In this document: one piece after another, positions 41,897-52,341 of the stretch
Layout of the letters: every line of letters begins with the position of its first letter
How positions within the stretch are numbered: position 1 is the first letter of the stretch
Origin: Nocardioides zeae
Lineage (GTDB): Bacteria > Actinomycetota > Actinomycetes > Propionibacteriales > Nocardioidaceae
Reading direction: 5' to 3'
Assembly (NCBI RefSeq): GCF_010686755.1
Contig: NZ_JAAGXA010000004.1
Coordinates: 62,001 to 126,000, forward strand
Length of the DNA stretch: 64,000 nt
Translations under genes and position numbers: made by a program
The notes under the pieces: generated by a model
Told to the model about the DNA's origin: nothing
The model's database searches: none
What the model saw: only the letters and a program-made list of their open reading frames with translations

Positions 41897-42687
41897 CCCC
41901 TGCTCCTCCCCGCCTCGTGGCGGAGGGCCTGACGCTGCGGTACGACGCGCGCACCGTCGCCACCGACCTGAGCGTCGTGGTGCCCGACGACCGGTTCACC
42001 GTCGTCCTCGGCCCCAACGCCTGCGGCAAGTCGACCCTCCTGCGGGCGCTCTCGGGGCTGCTGGCCCCGGCGGCGGGTCGGGTGCTGCTCGACGGGGCGC
42101 CGCTGTCGTCGTTGCCGGCGAAGGAGCGGGCCCGACGGATGGCGCTGCTGCCCCAGACGATGAGCGCACCGGAGGGCATTACCGTGCGCGAGCTCGTGCA
42201 CCGCGGCCGGTTCGCCCACCAGCGGGTGCTGCGACGTCACTCCGCCTCCGACCGCGACGCCGTCGCCGCGGCGCTCGAGGAGACCCACGTGGCCGACCTG
42301 GCCGAGCGTCGGCTCGACGAGCTGTCGGGCGGCCAGCGCCAGCGGGTGTGGATCGCGATGACGCTCGCCCAGGACACCCCGCTCGTGCTGCTCGACGAGC
42401 CCACGACCTTCCTCGACCTGCCCCACCAGATCGAGGTGCTCAACGTGCTGCACCGGCTCGTGGCGCGGGGCCGGACCGTCGTCGCGGTGCTCCACGACCT
42501 CAACCTGGCGGCGCGCTACGCCGACCACGTGGTCGCGATGCGCTCCGGGGCGGTGGTCGCCGAGGGCCCGCCGTCCGCGACGATCACGGAGCCGCTGCTG
42601 CGGTCGGTGTTCGACCTCGAGGCCACCGTCCTCCCCGACCCCCTCACCGGCGCCCCGATGGTCGTGCCGGCCGACTCCCGCGACTGA
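41893..42687 (+). CDS. Iron-siderophore ABC transporter ATP-binding protein (FecE/FepC type)
   Basis: Protein of 264 residues. Walker A is GPNACGKST, the Q-loop LLPQ, the signature LSGGQRQRVWIAM, Walker B LVLLDEPT and the switch His in AVLHDLN; all are intact. The FLDLPHQIEVL segment is typical of the siderophore-family ATPases. The ATG overlaps the permease stop. It powers ferric-siderophore import. Confidence 0.94.
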   Translation: MTPAPPRLVAEGLTLRYDARTVATDLSVVVPDDRFTVVLGPNACGKSTLLRALSGLLAPAAGRVLLDGAPLSSLPAKERARRMALLPQTMSAPEGITVRELVHRGRFAHQRVLRRHSASDRDAVAAALEETHVADLAERRLDELSGGQRQRVWIAMTLAQDTPLVLLDEPTTFLDLPHQIEVLNVLHRLVARGRTVVAVLHDLNLAARYADHVVAMRSGAVVAEGPPSATITEPLLRSVFDLEATVLPDPLTGAPMVVPADSRD

Positions 42688-42693
42688 CGCGTC

Positions 42694-42713
42694 GAGTTGT
42701 CACGTACGCCGCG
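42694..42713. repeat. Single copy of GAGTTGTCACGTACGCCGCG
   Basis: Identical over 20 bp to the tandem units at 17.4 kb. A related half-phrase, GTCGAGTTGCGAGAAACGCG, follows at 42722-42741, and a variant, GTCGAGCTGCACGAAACGCT, is near 43656-43675. Confidence 0.75.
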
Positions 42714-42776
42714 GCAGGTGCGTCGAGTTGCGAGAAACGCGCGCGGCGGGTCGCGGGCCCGGCGCAGCATGTCTCC

Positions 42777-43571
42777 ATGGGGGACGAGTCCGAGAAGGTC
42801 CTGCGGCTCCGCCGCGACGACACGTGCCGGGTGTGCGCCGCTCCGCTCGCTGCCGGCGCCACCGCGACGTACGAACGCGCCAGCCGCACCGTCCGCTGCC
42901 TCACCTGCCCGGCGGAGGACGCCGTCGTCGACCCCGGTACGGCGGGTGCGTCCGCCCGACGGGAGCACGAGCGGCGGCGGGATCGGCGCGAGCAGCGCGT
43001 GCGGGAGAAGCACCCGCGCATCGGCGGCTTCCTGCTCGCGGTGACCGACGACCCGGCATCGACGCGGGCGTGGGCGACCGGCGCCACCGGTGAGGAGCGC
43101 CTCGGGGCTCGGCTCGACGGCATCGCCTCCGCGACGGTCCGCGTGCTGCACGACCGCCGGATCCCCCGCAGTCGCGCCAACATCGACCACCTCGTCGTCA
43201 CCCCGGGAGGGGTGTGGGTGGTGGATGCGAAGCGGTACGCCGGCCGCCCCGCCCTCCGCGTCGAGGGAGGGCTGCTGCGCCCGCGCGTGGAGAAGCTGGT
43301 CGTCGCGGGTCGTGACCGGACGAACCTCGTCGACGGGGTGCTCCGGCAGGTCGAGGTGGTGACCGGGGTGCTGGGTGACGTGACCCCGGTGCGCGGTGCG
43401 CTCTGCTTCGTCGAGGCCGACTGGCCGTTGATCGGCGGAGCCTTCGTGACCCGCGGGGTCGAGGTGCTGTGGCCGAAGAAGCTGGCGGCGATGGTGACCG
43501 AGCCCCGCGGAGCGCTGCTCGACGTCGCGGCGGTCCACCAGCAGCTCGCGGCCGCCCTCCGCCCGGCCTGA
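42777..43571 (+). CDS. Zinc-ribbon and NERD (nuclease-related) domain protein
   Basis: Protein of 264 residues. An N-terminal CxxC pair (CRVC..CLTC, about 18-44) suggests a zinc ribbon, followed by a highly charged Arg/Glu linker. The NERD domain reads GEERLGARLD, IDHLVVTPGGVWVVDAKRYAGRP with the Asp and Asp-Ala-Lys residues expected for a PD-(D/E)XK-like site. NERD proteins may act on DNA or RNA; the role is unproven. The ATG at 42777 lacks a clear ribosome-binding site. Confidence 0.85.
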   Translation: MGDESEKVLRLRRDDTCRVCAAPLAAGATATYERASRTVRCLTCPAEDAVVDPGTAGASARREHERRRDRREQRVREKHPRIGGFLLAVTDDPASTRAWATGATGEERLGARLDGIASATVRVLHDRRIPRSRANIDHLVVTPGGVWVVDAKRYAGRPALRVEGGLLRPRVEKLVVAGRDRTNLVDGVLRQVEVVTGVLGDVTPVRGALCFVEADWPLIGGAFVTRGVEVLWPKKLAAMVTEPRGALLDVAAVHQQLAAALRPA

Positions 43572-43639: not shown

Positions 43640-43770
43640 CGTCGCCGGTGGGGTGTCGAGCTGCACGAAACGCTCAGGCGGGCACCACGCAAAGGGGCAC
43701 GAACGACAGCGGCCCGCGCCAACCCGCCGTCGTACGTGACCCTTTTCCGGAGCTGGCCAGGGCGCCGCTC

Positions 43771-43822
43771 GCGGACGTCATGCGCCCCGGCCGCCCCGGG
43801 CACCGCACCGCATGACGTCCGC
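43771..43822. repeat. Intergenic stem-loop, GGACGTCATGCG family, copy 3
   Basis: Perfect 14-bp arms GCGGACGTCATGCG (43771-43784) and CGCATGACGTCCGC (43809-43822) enclose a 24-nt loop. The loop CCCCGGCCGCCCCGGGCACC is nearly the loop of copy 1 at 6856-6879. Confidence 0.85.
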
Positions 43823-43891
43823 AGCGACGCCGCAGCGACGCCGCCACCGCCGCCACCGCCGAAAACTTTTTGTCAATCTGACTCAAACCCC

Positions 43892-43920
43892 TTGCCTCCC
43901 GATTAATTGTCGCACAGACT
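43892..43920 (+). promoter_or_regulatory. Promoter of the pseudokinase cassette
   Basis: TTGCCT (43892-43897), a 17-bp spacer and CAGACT (43915-43920) would start RNA at about 43927-43928, exactly the ATG of the pseudokinase, so the transcript would be leaderless. A dyad GACT-ATT-AGTC (43917-43927) overlaps the start and could be an operator. Confidence 0.5.
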
Positions 43921-43927
43921 ATTAGTC

Positions 43928-44965
43928 ATGAGCACCGACACGGACCTCCTCCACCAGGTCGAGGCAGCCACCACCCCGGCGGACCTCTTCGGCCCGCAGG
44001 ACGGCTCGGACCAGGCGCGGCGTCGCGCGCGGCGTACCCACCGCGTCATCGCCACCGCCCTCCACCCCGACCGGCGCGACCCGACGATCGACGCCGCCCG
44101 CGGGGACGCCGCGTTCGCCAAGGCCACGACGTTCTTCGAGCAGTGGAGCAACGGCGTCGAGGCCACGGACGAGGGCACGATCATCGGCACGAACGGCACC
44201 TGGACCATCGGCGCCCAGGTCGGCCGGGGCACCGTGGCGAACCTCTACGCCGTCCCCGGCGGCGACGCGGTCGTCAAGATCGCCCGCCGGCGCTCGTCGT
44301 CGCGCTACCTCCGCAACGAGCGGACGGCCCTGACCCGGCTCAGGGAACAGAGCGAGAGCTGGCTCGCGCCGTACCTCCCCCGCCTCCTCGACACCGCGAC
44401 CCTGCGCAGCCCCGACGGGAGCAAGAACGAGCAGCGCGAGGCCAACGTGCTCGGCTCGCTGACCCGCGCCGACGGGTTCGTGCCGTTGACCGCCGTGCAG
44501 GCGGCGGCCCCCGACGGGCTCGACGGCCGGGACTGGGCCTGGATGCAGCGGCGGATCATCCGCGCGCTCGCCGCGGTCCACGCGATCGGGATCGTCCACG
44601 GCGCGCTGCTGCCGGAGAACGTCCTCATCCATCCCGAGGAGCACGGGGTCGTCCTCGCGGGCTGGTCGTTCGCGACCCGGCCCGGCCGCCCGGCGGAGGG
44701 GGTCGTCGCGTCGCAGGCCGCGGCGTACCCGCCCGAGGTCACCGGTGGCGTCGTCACCCCGGCGACGGACGTCGCGATGCTCGGCGCGCTCGGGCTGGCG
44801 ATGCTGCGGCCCGACCAGCGGGTGCAACGGCGGTTCTCCGCCGGCCTGCGGCAGGACGCCCCGGGCATGCGGCCGCGGGCCGCTGACCTGCAGGGGGAGT
44901 ACGACGAGCTGCTCGACCGGCTCTACGGGCCGCGGCGGTTCCGCCCCCTCGACCTGGCCGTCTGA
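43928..44965 (+). CDS. J-domain-like pseudokinase
   Basis: Protein of 345 residues. The N-terminal helical region carries HPD (46-48, in IATALHPDRRDP), the J-domain hallmark that stimulates Hsp70. A protein-kinase-like fold follows: glycine loop VGRGTVAN (98-105), Lys117 (VVKIA) and Glu131. The catalytic loop is HGALLPENVLI (224-234), so the HRD Asp is lost while Asn231 remains. The DFG region reads LAGWSF (243-248), losing the metal Asp. It is probably a binding pseudokinase. It heads an operon with a VWA protein (51 nt away) and a PurA paralog. Confidence 0.8.
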   Translation: MSTDTDLLHQVEAATTPADLFGPQDGSDQARRRARRTHRVIATALHPDRRDPTIDAARGDAAFAKATTFFEQWSNGVEATDEGTIIGTNGTWTIGAQVGRGTVANLYAVPGGDAVVKIARRRSSSRYLRNERTALTRLREQSESWLAPYLPRLLDTATLRSPDGSKNEQREANVLGSLTRADGFVPLTAVQAAAPDGLDGRDWAWMQRRIIRALAAVHAIGIVHGALLPENVLIHPEEHGVVLAGWSFATRPGRPAEGVVASQAAAYPPEVTGGVVTPATDVAMLGALGLAMLRPDQRVQRRFSAGLRQDAPGMRPRAADLQGEYDELLDRLYGPRRFRPLDLAV

Positions 44966-45016
44966 ACGGCCCCCGCACACCCACACCGAAGCGACAGACA
45001 CGAAAGGAACAGGACA

Positions 45017-46000
45017 ATGGGCAACGGAGCATGGAGCGACCGGACCTTCGCCGCATCGGCGGGCGCCCGCCAGCGCAGCGGTCGGGCGGCCTTCGGCTAC
45101 AGCGACGACGTACGCCGCAAGCCGGTCGCGCAGTGGAAGGCGCACCCGACGCTCGACCCGAAGGGCCTCACCGTCCGCGAGTCGCGCGACTCGGCCGAGC
45201 ACCCGAACAGCACCCCGATCGCCGTCTTCTTCGACGTGACGGGCTCGATGGGCACGGTCCCGCAGCAGATGCAGGGCGAGCTGTCGAAGCTGCACGGGCT
45301 GCTGCAGCGGAAGGGCTACGTCGACGACCCGCAGATCATGTTCGGCGCGGTCGGCGACGCGGACACGGACTACGTGCCGTTGCAGGTCGGCCAGTTCGAG
45401 TCGGACAACCGCATGGACTCCCAGCTGCGGTCGATCTTCCTCGAGGGCAACGGCGGCGGCCAGATGAGCGAGTCCTACGAGCTGGCGGCCTACGTCATGG
45501 CCCGCCACACCGCGACCGACGCGTGGGAGAAGCGCGGCAAGAAGGGCTACCTGTTCGTCATCGGCGACGAGATGGGCAAGCCGAAGATCCGGGCGCGGCA
45601 GCTGCGCGACATCCTCGGCGTGAAGGCGCGGGAGGACGTGCGGTCGGAGGACCTGTGGCGCGAGGTCGAGGAGCGCTGGGAGGTGTTCTTCATCCTGCCG
45701 CGCCAGACGGCGCACTACGACAACCCGCAGGTCAACGACTACTGGCGCGCGATGCTCAGCGAGCGCCTGCTGCGCCTCGACGACCCGCGCGCGGTCTGCG
45801 ACCTGATCGCCCTGACGGTCGGCCTGCTCGAGGACGCCATCGACCTCGACGAGGGCCTCGAGGACCTGCGCGACGTGGGCAGCACGAGCGGCGGCGCGGT
45901 CTCGCGGGCGCTCGCCACGGTCGGTACGGCGCGGGGCACCGCCACGCTCCCCGCTCACCTCGCGCGCGACCTGGGCGCGGAGCCGGACGACCTGGCCTGA
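45017..46000 (+). CDS. VWA-fold protein of the pseudokinase cassette
   Basis: Protein of 327 residues. FFDVTGSMG (71-79) is a MIDAS-type metal site (Asp73-x-Thr-x-Ser77), followed by MQGELSKLHGLLQRKGYVDDPQIMFGAVGDADTD and GGGQMSESYELAAYVMARHT, which could supply the other metal ligands. YLFVIGDEMGKPKI and WEVFFILPRQTAHYD continue the alternating strands. It likely mediates metal-dependent protein contact, perhaps scaffolding the other two products. The ATG follows AGGAACAGGACA. The exact family is not recognised. Confidence 0.78.
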   Translation: MGNGAWSDRTFAASAGARQRSGRAAFGYSDDVRRKPVAQWKAHPTLDPKGLTVRESRDSAEHPNSTPIAVFFDVTGSMGTVPQQMQGELSKLHGLLQRKGYVDDPQIMFGAVGDADTDYVPLQVGQFESDNRMDSQLRSIFLEGNGGGQMSESYELAAYVMARHTATDAWEKRGKKGYLFVIGDEMGKPKIRARQLRDILGVKAREDVRSEDLWREVEERWEVFFILPRQTAHYDNPQVNDYWRAMLSERLLRLDDPRAVCDLIALTVGLLEDAIDLDEGLEDLRDVGSTSGGAVSRALATVGTARGTATLPAHLARDLGAEPDDLA

Positions 46001-46036
46001 GCCGGGCCCGAGCACACGAACGAGAGGAGAAGCGCG

Positions 46037-47299
46037 ATGACCACCCAGCCGCACCGCATCGTCGTCGGCCTCGGCTTCGGCGACGAGGCCAAGGGCGCGA
46101 CCGTCGACCGGCTCTGCGCGGAAGGCGGTGTGGCGGCGGTCGTCCGCTTCTCCGGCGGCCCGCAGGCGGCGCACAACGTGGTCGTCGACGGGGTCCACCA
46201 CACGTTCCGGCAGTTCGGGAGCGGGACGCTCGCGGGGGTGGCGTCCTACCTGAGCCGGTACGTGCTGGTGAGCCCCGAGGCGCTGGGGGCCGAGGCGGAC
46301 GAGCTGGCCGCGCGCGGCGTACCGGATCCCCTCGCCATGATCGCCGTCAGCCCCGACGCCCTGGTCGTCACGCCGGTGCACCGCGCCGCGAACCGCACGC
46401 GGGAGGACCTGCGCGGCGACGCGCGCCACGGGTCGTGCGGCCTGGGGGTCGGGGAGACGCAGCTCTACGCGCTGCCCGAGAACGGAGGCGCGGCGGCGAT
46501 CCGGGTGCGGGACTGCCTCGCGCCGGACGTGCTGCGCGTGAAGCTGGCGGCGCTGCTGGAGCACTACGCGCCGCTGCTCGCGCAGGGGTGCCACGAGGTG
46601 CCGACCCTGCGGGAGATGGCGGTGGACCTGCTGGAGTTCGGGGCGGCGGTGGCGATCGTCCCCGACGTCGCGTACCTGACGGCGGCCGCCGCGGCCGGGT
46701 CGCTCGTCCTCGAGGGCTCGCAGGGCGTGCTGCTCGACGAGTGGCGCGGGTTCCACCCGCACACGACGTGGTCGACGGTGACGCCGGCCCCGGCGCAGGC
46801 CCTGCTGGCGGAGGCGGGCCTCGGCCGGGGCGAGGTCTGGGGCGCCGTGCGGTCCTACGCCACGCGCCACGGGGCCGGCCCCTTCCCGACGGAGGACCGC
46901 ACGCTTGAGCTGCCGGAGGAGCACAACGGGTACGGCGCCTACCAGGGCGACTGGCGCACCGGGCACCTCGACCTCGTGCTGCTCGACTACGCGGCGCGGG
47001 TGTGCCGGGCGTCGGGCGGCCTCGACCTGCTGGCCGTCAGCCACCTCGATGCGGCCCCGGTGGGGGTGGCGACGGGCTATGCCTCCCTGCCGCTGGGGGA
47101 CTTCACCGACCTCGACCACCAGTCGCGGTTGACAGCCGCCCTGGCGGCGGCCCGGCCGCAGGTCATGCCGCTGGAGGGCCCGGTCGACGAGGTCATCGCG
47201 CGGTGCGTCGGGGTCCCGGTGGGCATGCGGGCGTACGGCGCGGCCCGCGCCGACCGGGTGCTGGAGGTCGGCACGCGCGGAAGGGTCGTGGCGGCGTGA
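46037..47299 (+). CDS. Divergent adenylosuccinate synthetase (PurA) paralog
   Basis: Protein of 420 residues. PurA landmarks kept are GDEAKG (15-20, catalytic Asp16), GGPQAAHN (40-47, catalytic His46), EGSQGVLLD (226-234) and GAGPFPTE (279-286). Two substrate loops differ. The IMP-contact GTTGRGIGPAY region reads HGSCGLGVGE (131-140). The aspartate-binding GATTGRPRR loop reads GAYQGDWRTG (300-309). The protein therefore probably ligates a different amine donor or acts on a different purine. It is encoded 36 nt after the VWA gene with GAGAGGAG before the ATG. Confidence 0.85.
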   Translation: MTTQPHRIVVGLGFGDEAKGATVDRLCAEGGVAAVVRFSGGPQAAHNVVVDGVHHTFRQFGSGTLAGVASYLSRYVLVSPEALGAEADELAARGVPDPLAMIAVSPDALVVTPVHRAANRTREDLRGDARHGSCGLGVGETQLYALPENGGAAAIRVRDCLAPDVLRVKLAALLEHYAPLLAQGCHEVPTLREMAVDLLEFGAAVAIVPDVAYLTAAAAAGSLVLEGSQGVLLDEWRGFHPHTTWSTVTPAPAQALLAEAGLGRGEVWGAVRSYATRHGAGPFPTEDRTLELPEEHNGYGAYQGDWRTGHLDLVLLDYAARVCRASGGLDLLAVSHLDAAPVGVATGYASLPLGDFTDLDHQSRLTAALAAARPQVMPLEGPVDEVIARCVGVPVGMRAYGAARADRVLEVGTRGRVVAA

Positions 47300-47302
47300 G
47301 CG

Positions 47303-48121
47303 TCAGGACCCCGCGCCCTTGCCGAAGCCGAGCGTGAGGCCCCCGTCGACCACGAGCTCCACGCCGGTGACGTACTTCGCGCGGTCGCTGGCGAGGAAGA
47401 GCGCCGCGTTGGCCACGTCCCAGGCGTCGCCCATGTGTCCCATGGGGACCTGGCGGTCGCGGGTGCGCCACATCTCCTCGACGTCCTCGCTGCTGTAGGC
47501 GTCGGTGATGCCGGCGACGCTCTGCACCATGGGCGTCTTGATGAGGCCCGGCAGCACCGCGTTGACGCGGACGTGACGGGCGGCGTACTCCGCGGCCGTC
47601 GTGCGCGTCAGGTGGTTCAGCGCGGCCTTGCTCGCGTAGTAGGCGGCGTAGGCGACGCCGCTCCAGCGGATGCTGGCGACGGAGGAGATGTTGACGACGC
47701 TGCCGCCGCCCTGGGCCTCCATCACGGGCAGGACGTGACGCATGGTCAGGAAGGCGGAGTCGACGTTGATCGCGAAGACGCGGCGCCAGTCCTCCGGCGT
47801 CACGTCCGCGACCCCGCCGAGGGCCGCGGTCCCGATGTTGTTGTCGAGCACGTCGATGCGCCCGTGGTCGCGCACGACGGCGCGGACGGCCTCGGCGACT
47901 TGGTCCTCGTCGGTCGCGTCGACCACCAGGGTCGACGCCGCGTGGCCCTCGGCCGCGATCATGGCCGCGGTCGCGGCGTTCGACTCGGCGTCGCGGTCGA
48001 TGCACACCACGTGGGCGCCCTCGCGGGCGAAGGTGAGGGCCGTGGCGCGACCGTTCCCCATGCCCTCGCCGATGCAGCCCGCACCGACGACGACGGCGAC
48101 CTTGCCGGTGAGCTCGTTCAT
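47303..48121 (-). CDS. Short-chain dehydrogenase/reductase of the acid-catabolism cluster
   Basis: Protein of 272 residues. The cofactor motif is GAGCIGEGMGNGRA, followed by DNNIG, the catalytic Ser in NISSVAS and Tyr-x3-Lys in YYASKAAL; the site is intact. The C-terminus VTGVELVVDGG is typical of FabG-like and 3-hydroxyacyl-CoA dehydrogenases. The ATG follows GAGAGGAA. It is the last gene of a cluster with acyl-CoA ligase and thiolase, suggesting the 3-hydroxyacyl-CoA oxidation step. Confidence 0.88.
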   Translation of the reverse strand: MNELTGKVAVVVGAGCIGEGMGNGRATALTFAREGAHVVCIDRDAESNAATAAMIAAEGHAASTLVVDATDEDQVAEAVRAVVRDHGRIDVLDNNIGTAALGGVADVTPEDWRRVFAINVDSAFLTMRHVLPVMEAQGGGSVVNISSVASIRWSGVAYAAYYASKAALNHLTRTTAAEYAARHVRVNAVLPGLIKTPMVQSVAGITDAYSSEDVEEMWRTRDRQVPMGHMGDAWDVANAALFLASDRAKYVTGVELVVDGGLTLGFGKGAGS

Positions 48122-48154
48122 GTCGTTCCTCTCGAGTGTGTCGTGCCCGACGGG

Positions 48155-49711
48155 TCAGATGGCGCGGTCGGCGGCGGCCCAGAACCGCTGGCGGACGTCG
48201 CGCTTCAGCACCTTGCCGTTGGCACTGCGGGGGAGCTGGTCGACGAACACGATCTGCTTGGGGGTCTTCACGCCGCTCAGCGACGAACGACAGTGGGCGA
48301 CCACCGCGTCCTCGTCGAGCGAGCGCCCGGGCTTGAGCTCGACGACGGCAGTGACGCGCTCGCCCCAGTCGGCGTCGGGGGCGCCCACCACCGCGCAGTC
48401 CTCGACCTCGGGCAGCGACCAGATCACCTGCTCGACCTCGCCGGGATACACGTTGAAGCCACCCGTGATGATCATGTCCTTCTTCCGGTCCGTGAGGTGG
48501 AGGTAGCCGTCCTCGTCGAGGCGCCCCAGGTCTCCGGTGTGCAGCCAGCCGTCGCGGATGGTCTCCGCCGTACGTTCCGGGTCGCGGTAGTAGCCCTTCA
48601 TCACCAGGTCGCCCTGCACGCAGATCTCCCCGGTCTCTCCCGGCGCGAGGACGGTGCCCTCGTCGGGGTCCTTGATCGCGACGCGCACGAGCGGGTAGGG
48701 ACGGCCGCACGACGAGAGCCGGTCGTCGTCGGCGACGACACCGTCGCGCAGGTGCTCCTCCGGACGCATGAAGGTGATGGCGGCCGGCGCCTCGACCTGT
48801 CCGTAGCACTCGATGAAGACGGGCCCGAGCCGCTCGATGCCCGCGCGCAGCTTCCTGCTCGACATCGGCGCGGCGGCGTACATGACGTACTTGAGGGACG
48901 AGGTGTCGACGACCCGGTCCGCGAGCACGTCGAGGAGGCGGTAGATCACCGTCGGCGGCAGGAAGAGCTCCGTGACCCCGTGCTTCTCGATCGCCGGCAG
49001 GATGTGCTCGGGCGTCGCCCGCGGCACCACGACGACCGTGCCGCCGCGGGCGGAGGTCTGCAGGCTGAACAGGCCCGCCGTGTGGGTCATCGGGGCAGCG
49101 GCCAGGTTCACGGGGTGCTCGTCCTCGGTGTAGGCGAGGGCCAGCATCTGGTGGACGACCATGACGGAGAAGCTGCGGTGGGTGTTCATGACCCCCTTGG
49201 GGACGCCGGTGGTCCCGCCGGTCGGGGAGATCGCGACGACGTCGTCCATCTGCTGCCCCACCACGACGGGCGGGTACGACGGGCGCCCGCCGAGCCAGTC
49301 CTCCAGGACCGTGACGTCCGCCGCGGGACGGAGCGCGACGAGGCGCAGGTCGAGTCCCTGCCGGACGAACTCCTCGACCTGGTCGGCGAGGGCGGGGTCG
49401 TAGAAGAGGACCTCGACGTCGAAGCGCCGCAGGAGGTCGGCGTTCTCGTGGGCCGGGTTCCCGGGGTTGAGCGGGACCCAGGCGCCGCCGGCGCGCCAGA
49501 CCCCGAGCACGCAGATCCACGCCAGTGGAGCGTTCGGGGACAGGACGGCGACCTTGCCCTCCCGCTGCAGGCCCTCGTCGAGGAGGGCGTGGCCGATGCG
49601 GCAGGACAGCTCGCGCGCCTCGTCGTAGGTCCAGCTCTCGTCGTCCGTGCAGTAGGCGACGGCGTCGGGGGAGGACGCCCAGCCCCGGTCGAAGAAGTCG
49701 ATGATGGGCAT
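48155..49711 (-). CDS. AMP-dependent acyl-CoA synthetase/ligase
   Basis: Protein of 518 residues of the ANL superfamily. The P-loop-like motif is SPTGGTTGVPKGVMNTH. A5 is FIECYGQVEAPAAITFM (usually YGxTE), A7 GWLHTGDLGRLDEDGYLHLTDRKKDMI, A8 GGFNVYPGEVEQ, and the catalytic Lys is in PRSANGKVLKRDVR. It activates a carboxylic acid to its CoA thioester via the acyl-AMP. It sits between thiolase and SDR genes. The ATG follows GAGGAG. Confidence 0.92.
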   Translation of the reverse strand: MPIIDFFDRGWASSPDAVAYCTDDESWTYDEARELSCRIGHALLDEGLQREGKVAVLSPNAPLAWICVLGVWRAGGAWVPLNPGNPAHENADLLRRFDVEVLFYDPALADQVEEFVRQGLDLRLVALRPAADVTVLEDWLGGRPSYPPVVVGQQMDDVVAISPTGGTTGVPKGVMNTHRSFSVMVVHQMLALAYTEDEHPVNLAAAPMTHTAGLFSLQTSARGGTVVVVPRATPEHILPAIEKHGVTELFLPPTVIYRLLDVLADRVVDTSSLKYVMYAAAPMSSRKLRAGIERLGPVFIECYGQVEAPAAITFMRPEEHLRDGVVADDDRLSSCGRPYPLVRVAIKDPDEGTVLAPGETGEICVQGDLVMKGYYRDPERTAETIRDGWLHTGDLGRLDEDGYLHLTDRKKDMIITGGFNVYPGEVEQVIWSLPEVEDCAVVGAPDADWGERVTAVVELKPGRSLDEDAVVAHCRSSLSGVKTPKQIVFVDQLPRSANGKVLKRDVRQRFWAAADRAI

Positions 49712-49714
49712 GGC

Positions 49715-50947
49715 TCAGGCTCCTCGCAGGATGATGACGGAGGTCACGGCTTCCTCACCGCGGTGGAACCCGCCGCCGTTCTCGGCCAGGGCGACGCGAG
49801 CGCCCTCCACCTGACGGGTGCCGGCACGGCCGCGCAGCTGCTCCGTGAGCTCGAAGACCTGGCCGAGACCGGTGGCGCCGAGGGGGTGCCCCTTGGACTC
49901 CAGACCGCCGGACGGGTTGATGGGGATGCGCCCACCGATGGTGGTCTCACCGGCCTCGGCGGCACGACCACCCTCGCCGGGCGGCACGAGGCCGAGCATC
50001 TCCGACTGCAGCACCTCGGCGAACGCGGTGGCGTCGTGCACCTCGGCCACGTCGACCTCGTCGGGACCGAGCCCGGCGCGCTCGTAGGCCCGCCGCGCGA
50101 CCCCCTGGGTGAGGTGACCCTCGAAGCGGGTGGTGTCGCGATCGTGACCGGTGCCCAGCACGGTGGCCAGCACCTCGACCGGGTGCTCCGCCCGGAGCCG
50201 AGCCAGACCGGCGTCGCTGCAGAGGACGACGGCTGCCGCTCCGTCGGTGACCGGGGCACACATCGGCACGGTCAACGGGTGGGAGAGCCGCCGCGCGCCC
50301 AGCACCTCCGCCACCGTCATCGAGCGCCGGTAGTGGGCCCGCTCGTTGTCGACGGCGTGGGCGTGGTTCTTCGCGGCGACCGCCGCGATCTGCTCGGGGG
50401 TGGAGCCGTAGAGGCGCATGTGCTGGCGGGCCATGGCGGCGTAGATGTCCATGAAGATGGACCGCGGGCCGAGGTCAGGTTCGTCCAGCTCCCCGCCGAG
50501 CTCCACGAGCGTCCGCTCGAGCGCGGCCCGGTCGGTCACGTCGAAGCCGGCCTCGAACAGCGACATGGTGCGGGCCGGGTCCCCGACGTGCATCTTCTCG
50601 GCGCCGACCGCCAGGGCCACGTCCGCCTCGCCGGCGCGCACGTAGGCGGCGGCGAGGTTGAACGCCGAGGCGCCCGTGGCGCAGGCGTTCTCGACGTTGT
50701 GCACGGGGATGCCCTCCAGGCCGAGGCCGCGCAGGGCGATCTCGCCGGAGATCGTGGCCTGGCCCTCCAGGAACCCGTGCGCCGCCGTGGCGTAGAAGGC
50801 GGCGTCGACTGCTGACAGCGACGCCCCTCCACCGGCGTCGGCGACGGCGTCGTGCACCGCCTGACGCGCCAGGTCGTGGTTGGTGCGGTCGGGGTGGACA
50901 CCGAACGCGGTCATCCCGACCCCGGCGATCCAGGTCCTGCTGCTCAT
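49715..50947 (-). CDS. Thiolase family protein (SCP-x / lipid-transfer type)
   Basis: Protein of 410 residues. The active-site Cys lies in NVENACATGASAFNLA. The C-terminal signatures are the His-containing EVHDATAFAEVLQSEMLGL and INPSGGLESKGHPLGATGLGQVFELTEQLRG. This HDAF-like variant marks the SCP-x thiolases used for side-chain or branched acyl-CoA cleavage. It lies 3 nt upstream of the ligase gene. The ATG follows GAGGAGCG. Confidence 0.9.
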   Translation of the reverse strand: MSSRTWIAGVGMTAFGVHPDRTNHDLARQAVHDAVADAGGGASLSAVDAAFYATAAHGFLEGQATISGEIALRGLGLEGIPVHNVENACATGASAFNLAAAYVRAGEADVALAVGAEKMHVGDPARTMSLFEAGFDVTDRAALERTLVELGGELDEPDLGPRSIFMDIYAAMARQHMRLYGSTPEQIAAVAAKNHAHAVDNERAHYRRSMTVAEVLGARRLSHPLTVPMCAPVTDGAAAVVLCSDAGLARLRAEHPVEVLATVLGTGHDRDTTRFEGHLTQGVARRAYERAGLGPDEVDVAEVHDATAFAEVLQSEMLGLVPPGEGGRAAEAGETTIGGRIPINPSGGLESKGHPLGATGLGQVFELTEQLRGRAGTRQVEGARVALAENGGGFHRGEEAVTSVIILRGA

Positions 50948-50975
50948 GCGGACGCTCCTCGGTCGATCGGTCGGG

Positions 50976-52277
50976 TCATCGCAGGGGCCGCTTGGCCGTC
51001 TCGGGCAGGAGGAAGTAGACGACCGTGCTCACGGCGGCGATCGCCGCGACGTACCAGCCGAACCGCTCCGCGTGGCCGATGTCGACCAGCCAGGTCGCGA
51101 CGTACGGGCCCGTGCCCCCGAACAGGGCGACGGCCAGCGCGTAGGGGAACCCGATGCCCGCGCCGCGCAGCCGCGCCGGAAAGAGCTCGGCGGCGGTCGC
51201 CGCACTGATGCTGGCCCAGCAGGCGATGAAGAGCAGTCCGGTCACCTGGACGAGGAGCAGGCTCGCCATCGTCGGCCGGAGGGACGACAGGAGCGGAACC
51301 GTCGCGATGACGAAGAACAGGCCGAACGCGATCAGCATCGGACGGCGACCCAGCTTGTCGGACAGGGCGCCGCAGACCGGGAGCGCGAGGAGGAAGACCG
51401 ACAGCGAGATGACGCCGGTGACGAGGCCCTTCGACACGTCGAAGCCGACGGTGATGCTGGCGTAGGTCGGCAGGAAGGCCGTCCACACGTAGAAGACCAG
51501 TGCGGGCGCGGCCGTGAGGCCGAAGATCTGCAGGGCTTCCTTCGGGTGCTCGCGGAAGAAGTCGAAGAGACCGACGCGGTCGCCCTTGGGCTTCTCGATG
51601 ACGTCCTCGTGGAGCGTCTCCTCCGCCCGCCGACGCACCCAGAGGCCCACGAACGCGGCGACCGAGCCGAGCAGGAACGGGACGCGCCATCCCCACGAGG
51701 TCATGGCGTCGGCGGCGAGGAGGTTGGCCAGCAGCGCGGCCATGCCGATGGCAGCGAGGTTGGCGACGGTGGCGCTCATGTAGAAGACGCTGGAGAACAG
51801 CCCGCGGCGCGCGCTCGGGGCGGACTCGATGAGGAAGGCGGACCCGGCGGCGTACTCGCCGCCCGCCGAGGCTCCCTGGATGATGCGGGCGACGAGGAGG
51901 ATGACCGGCGCGAGGATGCCGATCTGCTCGTAGGTCGGCGACAGACCGATCATCAGGCTGCCGACGCCCATGCCGACGATCGTCCCGCTCAGGGCGCGGC
52001 GGCGGCCGAAGCGGTCGGCGAGCACGCCGATGACGAGACCGCCGACGGGCCGGGCGAAGAAGCCGACGGCGAAGATGGCGAGCGTCGACAGGAGCGGGAC
52101 CAGGCTGTCATCGGTGGTCGCGGGGAAGAACTGGCCGGCGAAGTAGATCGCCAGGATCGAGTAGATGTACCAGTCGAACCACTCGACGGCGTTCCCGACG
52201 CACACCGCGAGCAGCTGTCGGGATCTGCTCGTGGGGCGTGCGAGGGCGGTCGGTTCGGCGACGCGGGGTTCGGCCAT
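50976..52277 (-). CDS. MFS transporter, metabolite:H+ symporter (MHS) family
   Basis: Protein of 433 residues with 12 helices. It has the MHS signatures GNAVEWFDWYIYSILAIYFAGQFFP, FFARPVGGLVIGVLADRFGRRRAL and RIIQGASAGGEYAAGSAFLIE. The family imports organic acids such as shikimate, alpha-ketoglutarate or aromatic acids, which fits the adjacent CoA ligase and thiolase. The ATG at 52277 follows GGAG at good spacing; an upstream in-frame GTG (52301) would add 8 residues. Confidence 0.9.
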   Translation of the reverse strand: MAEPRVAEPTALARPTSRSRQLLAVCVGNAVEWFDWYIYSILAIYFAGQFFPATTDDSLVPLLSTLAIFAVGFFARPVGGLVIGVLADRFGRRRALSGTIVGMGVGSLMIGLSPTYEQIGILAPVILLVARIIQGASAGGEYAAGSAFLIESAPSARRGLFSSVFYMSATVANLAAIGMAALLANLLAADAMTSWGWRVPFLLGSVAAFVGLWVRRRAEETLHEDVIEKPKGDRVGLFDFFREHPKEALQIFGLTAAPALVFYVWTAFLPTYASITVGFDVSKGLVTGVISLSVFLLALPVCGALSDKLGRRPMLIAFGLFFVIATVPLLSSLRPTMASLLLVQVTGLLFIACWASISAATAAELFPARLRGAGIGFPYALAVALFGGTGPYVATWLVDIGHAERFGWYVAAIAAVSTVVYFLLPETAKRPLR

Positions 52278-52341
52278 GGTCATCTCCGTTGCGCGGGACA
52301 CGACGGCTGCCGCAGCAGCCGGAAGTAGGACCCGACAACCA

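Follow-up and report, generated by a model that had tools for sequence, protein, structure and literature searches.

What kind of enzyme system is encoded where a bacterial operon joins a divergent relative of adenylosuccinate synthetase (AdSS, the product of purA) to a metal-site protein and a kinase that has lost its catalytic residues? The question is raised by a three-gene cassette of Nocardioides zeae (RefSeq assembly GCF_010686755.1, contig NZ_JAAGXA010000004.1), which lies in a stretch of 64,000 nucleotides that is called the window here and whose coordinates are used wherever no other locus is named. The three open reading frames (ORFs) all lie on the plus strand, and encode a J-domain pseudokinase (P0001, or protein 1; 43928..44965, 345 aa), a VWA protein (P0002, protein 2; 45017..46000, 327 aa) and a PurA-like GTP-dependent ligase paralogue (P0003, protein 3; 46037..47299, 420 aa). 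The original prediction, made from the DNA letters of the window, had described three such ORFs at 43928-47299, and coordinates, strand and residues all agree with it. Short gaps (51 nt between the kinase and VWA genes, 36 nt between the VWA and PurA-like genes) and one operator/promoter-like region suggest a single transcript. The three-gene set is real, conserved and apparently mobile, and in it a rebuilt PurA-type site is tied to a VWA partner and to NrtR-type control, while the mechanism beyond this is something that we infer. The answer that we prefer, at a confidence just short of even, is that the operon is mobile and specifies a PurA-superfamily ligase, driven by GTP, which uses a new amine partner and probably works in a protein complex under repression by an NrtR-type regulator.

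The argument begins with protein 3, which matches Pfam Adenylsucc_synt PF00709 (198 bits) and phrog_1211 (221 bits) and is aligned by VIA to mouse AdSS over 382 residues (Z 44.3, 2.2 A). Its scores stay below the NCBIfam cut-offs for PurA (125 vs 395.6 bits for TIGR00184, 156 vs 402 bits for PRK01117), and a canonical purA on another contig of the same genome reaches 600 bits as against its 198. A residue signature was drawn from 192 sequences, namely 161 of the family (in which the window appears twice and near copies are kept), 30 canonical PurA proteins and one PurZ. Positions are labelled by what we take to be the E. coli PurA numbering, tied to published contacts, and a column labelled V273, which coincided with an invariant Arg, was set aside. 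The catalytic and GTP-binding residues D13, K16, H41 and Q224 are each kept in 161/161 members, T239 in 158 and D333 in 159. Other positions have changed throughout the family: N38 has become Gln in 158 members, T129 Cys in 145, T301 Gln in 158, T300 Tyr, Trp or Phe in 154, S240 Trp in 118 and K331 His in 134. R303, present in 30/30 canonical PurA proteins, falls in a gap in 161/161 members, and R143, equally constant in canonical PurA, is Arg in 3/161 (Ala in the window), in a region where the alignment is loose. In the window protein the altered loops are the inosine monophosphate (IMP) loop HGSCGLGVGE (46427..46456, plus strand, residues 131-140; T128->S, T129->C) and the aspartate loop GAYQGDWRTG (46934..46963, plus strand, residues 300-309; T300->Y, T301->Q, R303 deleted, R305->W), both found as originally named, together with the retained catalytic Asp and His.

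What these changes mean can be read from known contacts. According to the accessible parts of the two sources, R303 of E. coli PurA balances the O2' of IMP and interacts with aspartate (PMC8342488), and Asn37, Thr121 and Arg294 of H. pylori AdSS, with Arg135 of the neighbouring subunit, touch IMP (PMC11571797). The H. pylori residues are the equivalents of N38, T129, R303 and R143. The comparison indicates that the family has kept the half of the site that binds GTP and phosphorylates the 6-oxo group of the purine, and has rebuilt the other half, with the loss of contacts to free aspartate and to IMP. The amine accepted by such a ligase would be something other than free aspartate. It could also be argued that protein 3 is no ligase at all but a GTP/IMP-binding sensor or scaffold, and the operon a regulatory stress module, as the wide loss of substrate contacts (R303 and R143 above all) and a partner kinase in which catalysis is mostly lost (6/111 keep the HRD Asp) would allow; a sensor, however, would hardly need D13, H41, K16 and Q224, which are invariant in all 161 members despite great divergence, and we consider this answer unlikely.

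Recruitment of PurA chemistry by phages brings PurZ to mind, and the original prediction had drawn that parallel for DNA modification. Kinship with PurZ is not supported and was rejected: protein 3 scores 30.4 bits against the NF038379 cut-off of 300, Asp13 is kept in the family where the PurZ of SH-Ab has Ser, and in a maximum-likelihood tree (a quick method, with 71 family rows filtered from the 161, 30 PurA, one PurZ and three other PurA from phage records) the family forms one clade with SH-aLRT 99, apart from PurA and from PurZ, the latter being the single SH-Ab sequence on a long branch. The best PurZ/PurZ0 entries match the fold in VIA with Z 32-34. Phage carriage itself is extensive. 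A tblastn search of 50,697 phage records matched protein 2 in 208, protein 3 in 226 and protein 1 in 190, of which 189 in each case are Mycobacterium phages; Rhizobium and Vibrio phages match proteins 2 and 3 only, and a few matches to protein 3, from unverified records, prove to be ordinary PurA. Genes 257 (kinase), 258 (VWA) and 260 (PurA-like) of phage Ronan follow the order of the window, and the PurA-like gene lies downstream of the VWA gene in a Vibrio phage and a Rhizobium phage. These 189 records and many large viral contigs, as well as the PHROG and GenBank names, would suit a phage-type DNA base modification in which an unusual deoxynucleotide is built into DNA, as with PurZ. Given that the family is not PurZ by score, clade or Asp13, and that chromosomal and plasmid copies are common, this is the least probable of the answers weighed here.

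The second line of evidence is the company that protein 3 keeps. Profile scans found at least 516 relatives among 591 candidates in genome contigs and 260 relatives in viral contigs, and 80 loci were taken from each. With six repeated contigs dropped, 171 fetched loci (numbered L below) from bacteria and large phages were searched for partners with iterated hidden Markov models (HMMs); the set is not de-duplicated, and besides the window it counts N. alkalitolerans two times, together with phages and Nocardia strains that are nearly the same. A PurA relative stands beside the VWA gene in 168/171 loci, so that synteny, the absence of which would have refuted the original prediction, is indeed conserved across genomes, and two of the three loci without one (L031, L094) end just past the VWA gene, L156 having none within 3.3 kb. 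The order kinase-VWA-PurA recurs on one strand in 102/171 loci (the window and near copies counted), which excludes chance, and the order VWA-PurA-kinase occurs in 8 loci, all viral. The gap from the VWA gene to the PurA gene has a median of 16.5 nt, with 87/164 pairs overlapping or at most 20 nt apart; no ORF in the 171 loci matches two of the three family models, as a natural fusion would.

Protein 2 itself has no Pfam match. It scores 265 bits with phrog_2971, and its structural model shows, in VIA, a VWA/beta-I fold close to an integrin beta chain (Z 15.7, 2.7 A, 190 residues). The original prediction had noted its DVTGSMG metal site (45233..45253, plus strand), and the metal ion-dependent adhesion site (MIDAS) motif is intact, with D73-V-T75-G-S77 and D184 providing a DxSxS-type motif plus the loop-3 Asp; among 168 family members D73 is kept in 168, T75 in 167, S77 in 167 and D184 in 168, and the motif is a putative metal binder. 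A further constant feature lies at the N-terminus, which reads M-G-N-G-x-W in the window protein: Gly occupies position 2 in 168/168, one of Gly, Ser, Thr and Ala position 4, and an aromatic residue position 6. Start codons were picked by closeness to the start of the profile, a choice that does not require Gly.

Two answers to the question of the amine follow from these observations. One would have a PurA-type enzyme join a free amino acid or small amine to make an N6-substituted purine nucleotide, as a signal or cofactor precursor, with the VWA and J-domain proteins as assembly chaperones. Free aspartate is what PurA and PurZ use, which makes a small amine the conservative guess, and the intact catalytic residues and the nucleotide or NAD (nicotinamide adenine dinucleotide) genes near some phage copies accord with it; yet the near-constant VWA partner with its invariant Gly2 is left unexplained, and no PurB-like lyase was noticed among the conserved neighbours listed, no search having been aimed at one. 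We regard this small-molecule product as possible but doubtful. A bolder answer is that, after removal of Met, the N-terminal Gly alpha-amine of the VWA protein takes the place of aspartate, so that the VWA protein itself becomes joined to C6 of a purine nucleotide, which would be a protein modification of a novel kind. It would then be a nucleotide-tagged carrier or signal, charged with GTP as NAD breaks down and handled by the J-domain pseudokinase and DnaK. The case is circumstantial, being that Gly2 is invariant beside a ligase with a rebuilt amine pocket, and this version as a whole is rather improbable.

Some copies of the VWA gene are unusual in their own right. In Ronan gene 258 (L011:4936-6720) the VWA protein is split by an intein-like insert (beginning C..PDAPVWMADGS and ending SN|C) immediately ahead of the conserved GDE segment of the metal site, and in some related records an HNH endonuclease is annotated at that position. 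One VWA match (L184, genome G018) carries an internal TGA and is possibly a decaying copy.

Protein 1 supplies what may be the chaperone arm. It carries an HPD motif at residues 46-48 between helices 28-45 and 56-81, which gives a J-domain hairpin at the N-terminus (J domain ~1-81), followed by a kinase fold (~82-334) in which HRD has become HGA and DFG has become GWS; both catalytic Asp residues are therefore gone, as the original prediction had it, with the VAIK Lys and the alpha-C Glu retained. An AlphaFold2 model built from 69 alignment rows reaches a pLDDT (predicted local distance difference test) of 94.2 and a pTM (predicted template modelling score) of 0.87; its best Foldseek match is the DnaJ-PKA chimera 4wb7, and the best VIA match is the kinase-homology domain of STK40 (Z 23.8), equal with PknB. 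At the level of profiles the protein scores 64 bits with phrog_3043 ('kinase') and gives partial, mostly kinase-domain matches in PADLOC; Pfam DnaJ does not match it, and an Acetobacter relative reaches E 1.7e-4, under the Pfam cut-off. Across 111 kinase-family rows (the window included) HPD is kept in 99 (57/57 bacterial, 42/54 viral), the VAIK Lys in 86 and the DFG Asp in 46, and the 6 rows with the HRD Asp are all viral. A relative of the pseudokinase was detected with the iterated HMM in 113/171 loci.

How such an operon would be controlled is suggested by the gene most often found next to it. An iterated Nudix profile places an NrtR-type Nudix gene beside the cassette, on the same strand, in 76/80 bacterial loci, the remaining four being L023 (Nocardioides) and three loci cut by nearby contig ends (L031, L034, L098). 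Where checked, these genes are of the NrtR type with Nudix and winged helix (Pfam NrtR_WHD in the cassette-linked L095, L124, L233 and L239), and by eye the C-termini of the Nocardia-type copies are similar. The gene follows the cassette in Mycobacteriales and their relatives, precedes it on the same strand in Streptomyces-type operons, and precedes it in divergent orientation in four alphaproteobacterial plasmid loci; three such layouts argue for a repeated association with the cassette. In the window genome itself (4.4 Mb) a single NrtR homologue lies away from the cassette; it shares 37% identity with one that is linked to a cassette, and is confirmed by NrtR_WHD. TTGTC-N5-GACAA precedes its start, it adjoins an ORF that is presumably alpha/beta-hydrolase-like, and no NAD gene was recognised nearby by eye, these neighbours not having been searched against databases.

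Two palindromes ahead of the window operon are putative operators of the NrtR-type regulator. The first, TTTTTGTC-AATCT-GACTCAAA (43867..43887, plus strand), agrees at 14/16 positions with an operon-head consensus, TTTTAGTC-N5-GACTAAAA, and no other site in the genome comes within 2 mismatches of TTTTWGTC-N5-GACTMAAA (0 for the reversed-pattern control). The second and weaker one, TAATTGTC-GCACA-GACTATTA (43904..43924, plus strand), scores 11/16, which 8/3834 background windows also reach, and ends 3 nt 5' of the start codon, over what is probably the -10 region. The pair keeps the same 37-nt spacing in all five Nocardioides copies compared, with first-site scores of 11-14. More widely, a palindrome of at least 12/16 occurs at 60/81 operon heads (the 80 loci and the window) vs 0/3834 random windows, the consensus having been taken from 14 heads, some of them among the loci scored; the heads that fall short are 19 Streptomyces-type loci (scores 6-8), L023 (11) and L026. 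In the Streptomyces-type operons a palindrome of like build but different letters, TTCTC-N5-GAGAA, putatively another class of operator, stands 5' of the NrtR gene in L083, L085, L087-L092, L095, L099 and L100 (exact near 11/18 such genes and within 1 mismatch near 14/18, background 0/934, with a consensus likewise taken from some of the scored loci), and the Nocardia-type palindrome scores only 8-10 near these genes. No convincing palindrome site was found at the NrtR genes of five viral loci, and matches of 12-13/16 scattered in other, mostly AT-rich viral contigs were discarded because they look like chance. By analogy with NrtR, control of the operon by ADP-ribose or NAD-type metabolites is likely.

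That the operon is mobile is apparent from its patchy distribution and its borders. The VWA gene is present in 5/196 genomes of the genus and 7/293 of the order, and a sample of 396 genomes across the phylum gave two clear cases and a marginal one (19 bits), the window genome being counted each time. Plasmid records matching the VWA protein number 21, with carriers that include Rhodococcus (a plasmid of R. jostii RHA1 among them), rhizobia and Acetobacter; of 8 fetched plasmid loci, 7 are matched by the kinase model, 7 by the PurA model and 6 by the Nudix model. Within the genus, genome G747 shares with the window a block of 3.5 kb only, at 92.7% identity (43768-47263, the operators and nearly all of the three genes), and the fetched flanks cannot be aligned, so that the movement of the operon as a unit is the simplest reading; genome G786 shares 8.4 kb at 92%, the upstream flank included.

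Genes of NAD metabolism lie near some phage copies. Of the longest cassette-bearing viral contigs, 50 in number with one copy of L125 left out, 11 have a NAPRT/NAMPT-family gene, and in 7 of these it lies within the fetched locus, where 0.94 would be expected under uniform placement (P 4e-6), and NrtR_WHD is found in 4/50, each time at the cassette. Two of the 7 cassette-near NAMPT genes are 5.0 and 6.6 kb distant, and L124 is related to L125 (mostly 80-95% DNA identity), which makes the true weight of the clustering smaller; 39/50 contigs have no gene of this family. Clustering of neighbours by six-frame ORFs is noisy, but the most salient of the clusters inspected were Nudix and, for phages, NAMPT and NADAR, the last in 6 loci by clustering with one confirmed by Pfam. 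Some large phages have NAD clusters with NrtR and NAMPT packed round the cassette (L116:7228-9962, which also encodes a NadM-Nudix-like protein, L124:5512-6258 and L020:7559-8290). Other phage neighbours are TROVE/Ro-like and DUF7788/DUF2828 (VWA) proteins near some copies (L153:4813-6330, L012:11356-12873), perhaps an RNA-repair theme, and an annotated metal-dependent phosphohydrolase ~7 kb from the copy of a Vibrio phage.

Hosts and phages thus share a patchy unit of 3.5 kb that sits between unlike flanks and near NADAR, NAMPT or NrtR in some phages, and predicted ADP-ribose conflict operons contain vWA proteins (PMC9503650, as far as the accessible text goes). All of this could speak for an anti-phage or anti-defence conflict system that attacks or protects NAD- or ADP-ribose-modified targets during infection. 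PADLOC (2023 library), however, has no match for the VWA or the PurA-like protein, and the operon contains no obvious effector gene. The scan of the flanks covered 27 of the 80 bacterial loci, with 68 ORFs out of 125 that had been chosen automatically; as these are the longest ORFs, taken greedily, of high-GC DNA, some must be spurious, and no control flanks accompanied them. PADLOC matches there are scattered over single ORFs or pairs (DpdF, PDC-S48, PsyrT, mad3 and others), and the Pfam families among the matches listed are unrelated and mostly metabolic. A conflict system is therefore very improbable, and a defence-island setting is not supported by the flanks scanned. Of the original prediction, then, the synteny, the J-domain pseudokinase, the PurA paralogue with altered loops and the phage carriage have held, and the kinship with PurZ and the defence-island setting have not; the invariant Gly2, the NrtR-type regulator with its operators, and the NAMPT and NADAR neighbours in phages are additions to it.

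In the GTP-driven ligase operon that we prefer, an NrtR-type Nudix regulator would repress transcription and be switched by ADP-ribose or NAD-type metabolites, so that expression would rise when NAD is consumed and ADP-ribose released, a state that may arise in stressed and in phage-infected cells. The PurA-like ligase would activate a 6-oxopurine (hypoxanthine-type) nucleotide with GTP and couple it to some amine that is not free aspartate, with the VWA protein supplying or presenting that amine. The J domain would recruit DnaK, and the pseudokinase would serve as a scaffold when the complex, or its target, is remodelled. Several observations weigh against this proposal. The window has no adjacent NrtR gene, NAMPT and NrtR are both absent from the surroundings of most viral loci, and of the 8 plasmid loci 2 give no NrtR-type match, 1 no PurA match and 1 no kinase match. 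In the common Nocardia-type regulator the Nudix box is degenerate, and the winged helix is not called by Pfam in L030 and L236, the two scanned. NrtR relatives can answer other ligands, as the NrtR-family AraR of Bacteroides answers L-arabinose (PMC4666351, in the part accessible), which leaves the ADP-ribose link likely rather than certain. The pseudokinase was not detected in 58/171 loci, many of them Nocardia, and is therefore not essential. Finally, when the in-frame VWA and PurA genes of the window and 27 relatives were used to fold a VWA-PurA fusion, both domains were confident (pLDDT 92.0) but pTM was 0.60, so there is no confident interface and none is claimed.

On the 5' side of the cassette lies a gene for a NERD (nuclease-related) domain protein (42348-43568), with a siderophore-uptake gene set further upstream. 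Convergent genes on the minus strand (47303-52301), encoding a short-chain dehydrogenase, an AMP-binding ligase, a thiolase-like protein and an MFS protein, are perhaps a lipid or aromatic catabolic operon. A look at tandem repeats and tRNAs around the locus gave nothing notable. In Allorhizobium S4 (pAtS4e) an AAA ATPase - DUF5682 - DUF4132 set directly follows the cassette (L233:10309-16705).

Should the proposal be correct, there would be, PurZ aside, a second recruitment of PurA chemistry, that is the GTP-driven amination of a 6-oxopurine, this time with a partner protein and a chaperone arm attached and with an NAD-type switch in control. The module would serve bacteria as well as sequenced phages in the hundreds, many mycobacteriophage isolates among them, and phrog_1211, 2971 and 3043, families now unnamed or loosely named, would gain a function with a testable substrate question. 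A literature search found no description of this operon, most subscription papers and preprints lying outside it, and a word search of the accessible main texts of PMC7824862, PMC9503650, PMC7159879 and PMC12839542 returned neither PurA nor adenylosuccinate.

Comparison with known systems shows where the operon stands. With PurA the family shares the fold, the P-loop and D13, K16, H41, Q224, T239 and D333, but T300, T301, R303 and R305, with N38, T129 and R143, are replaced or deleted, K331 is mostly His, scores lie far under the equivalog cut-offs, and the host retains a purA of its own. PurZ and PurZ0, the 2-aminoadenylosuccinate synthetases of Z-DNA phages, are likewise derived from PurA, phage-borne and altered in the substrate pocket, whereas the present family forms its own clade, keeps Asp13 and is widespread on bacterial chromosomes and plasmids. 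In MoxR AAA+/vWA pairs of group 2.2 jumbo phages the VWA protein has been proposed as a cochaperone (PMC7824862, accessible text); here the partner is a PurA-like ligase and the window's three genes include no AAA+ gene, for which reason a MoxR chaperone-pair reading was rejected, although an AAA ATPase does follow the Allorhizobium copy. The ARG-Nudix/WYL-vWA counter-systems against ADP-ribose also bring Nudix-HTH regulators and vWA proteins into one neighbourhood (PMC9503650), but that main text, as far as it was word-searched, names neither PurA nor adenylosuccinate. Closest of all are the phrog_3043, 2971 and 1211 genes of Ronan (Bixzunavirus; cluster C), which belong to the same three families in the same order and differ in the intein-like insert of the VWA gene, in an extra small ORF between VWA and PurA, and in having no NrtR match in the fetched stretch; kinase, HNH and 'PurA-like' phage genes are listed, in the accessible part of a genome announcement (PMC9476963), as unique to and conserved in cluster C1.

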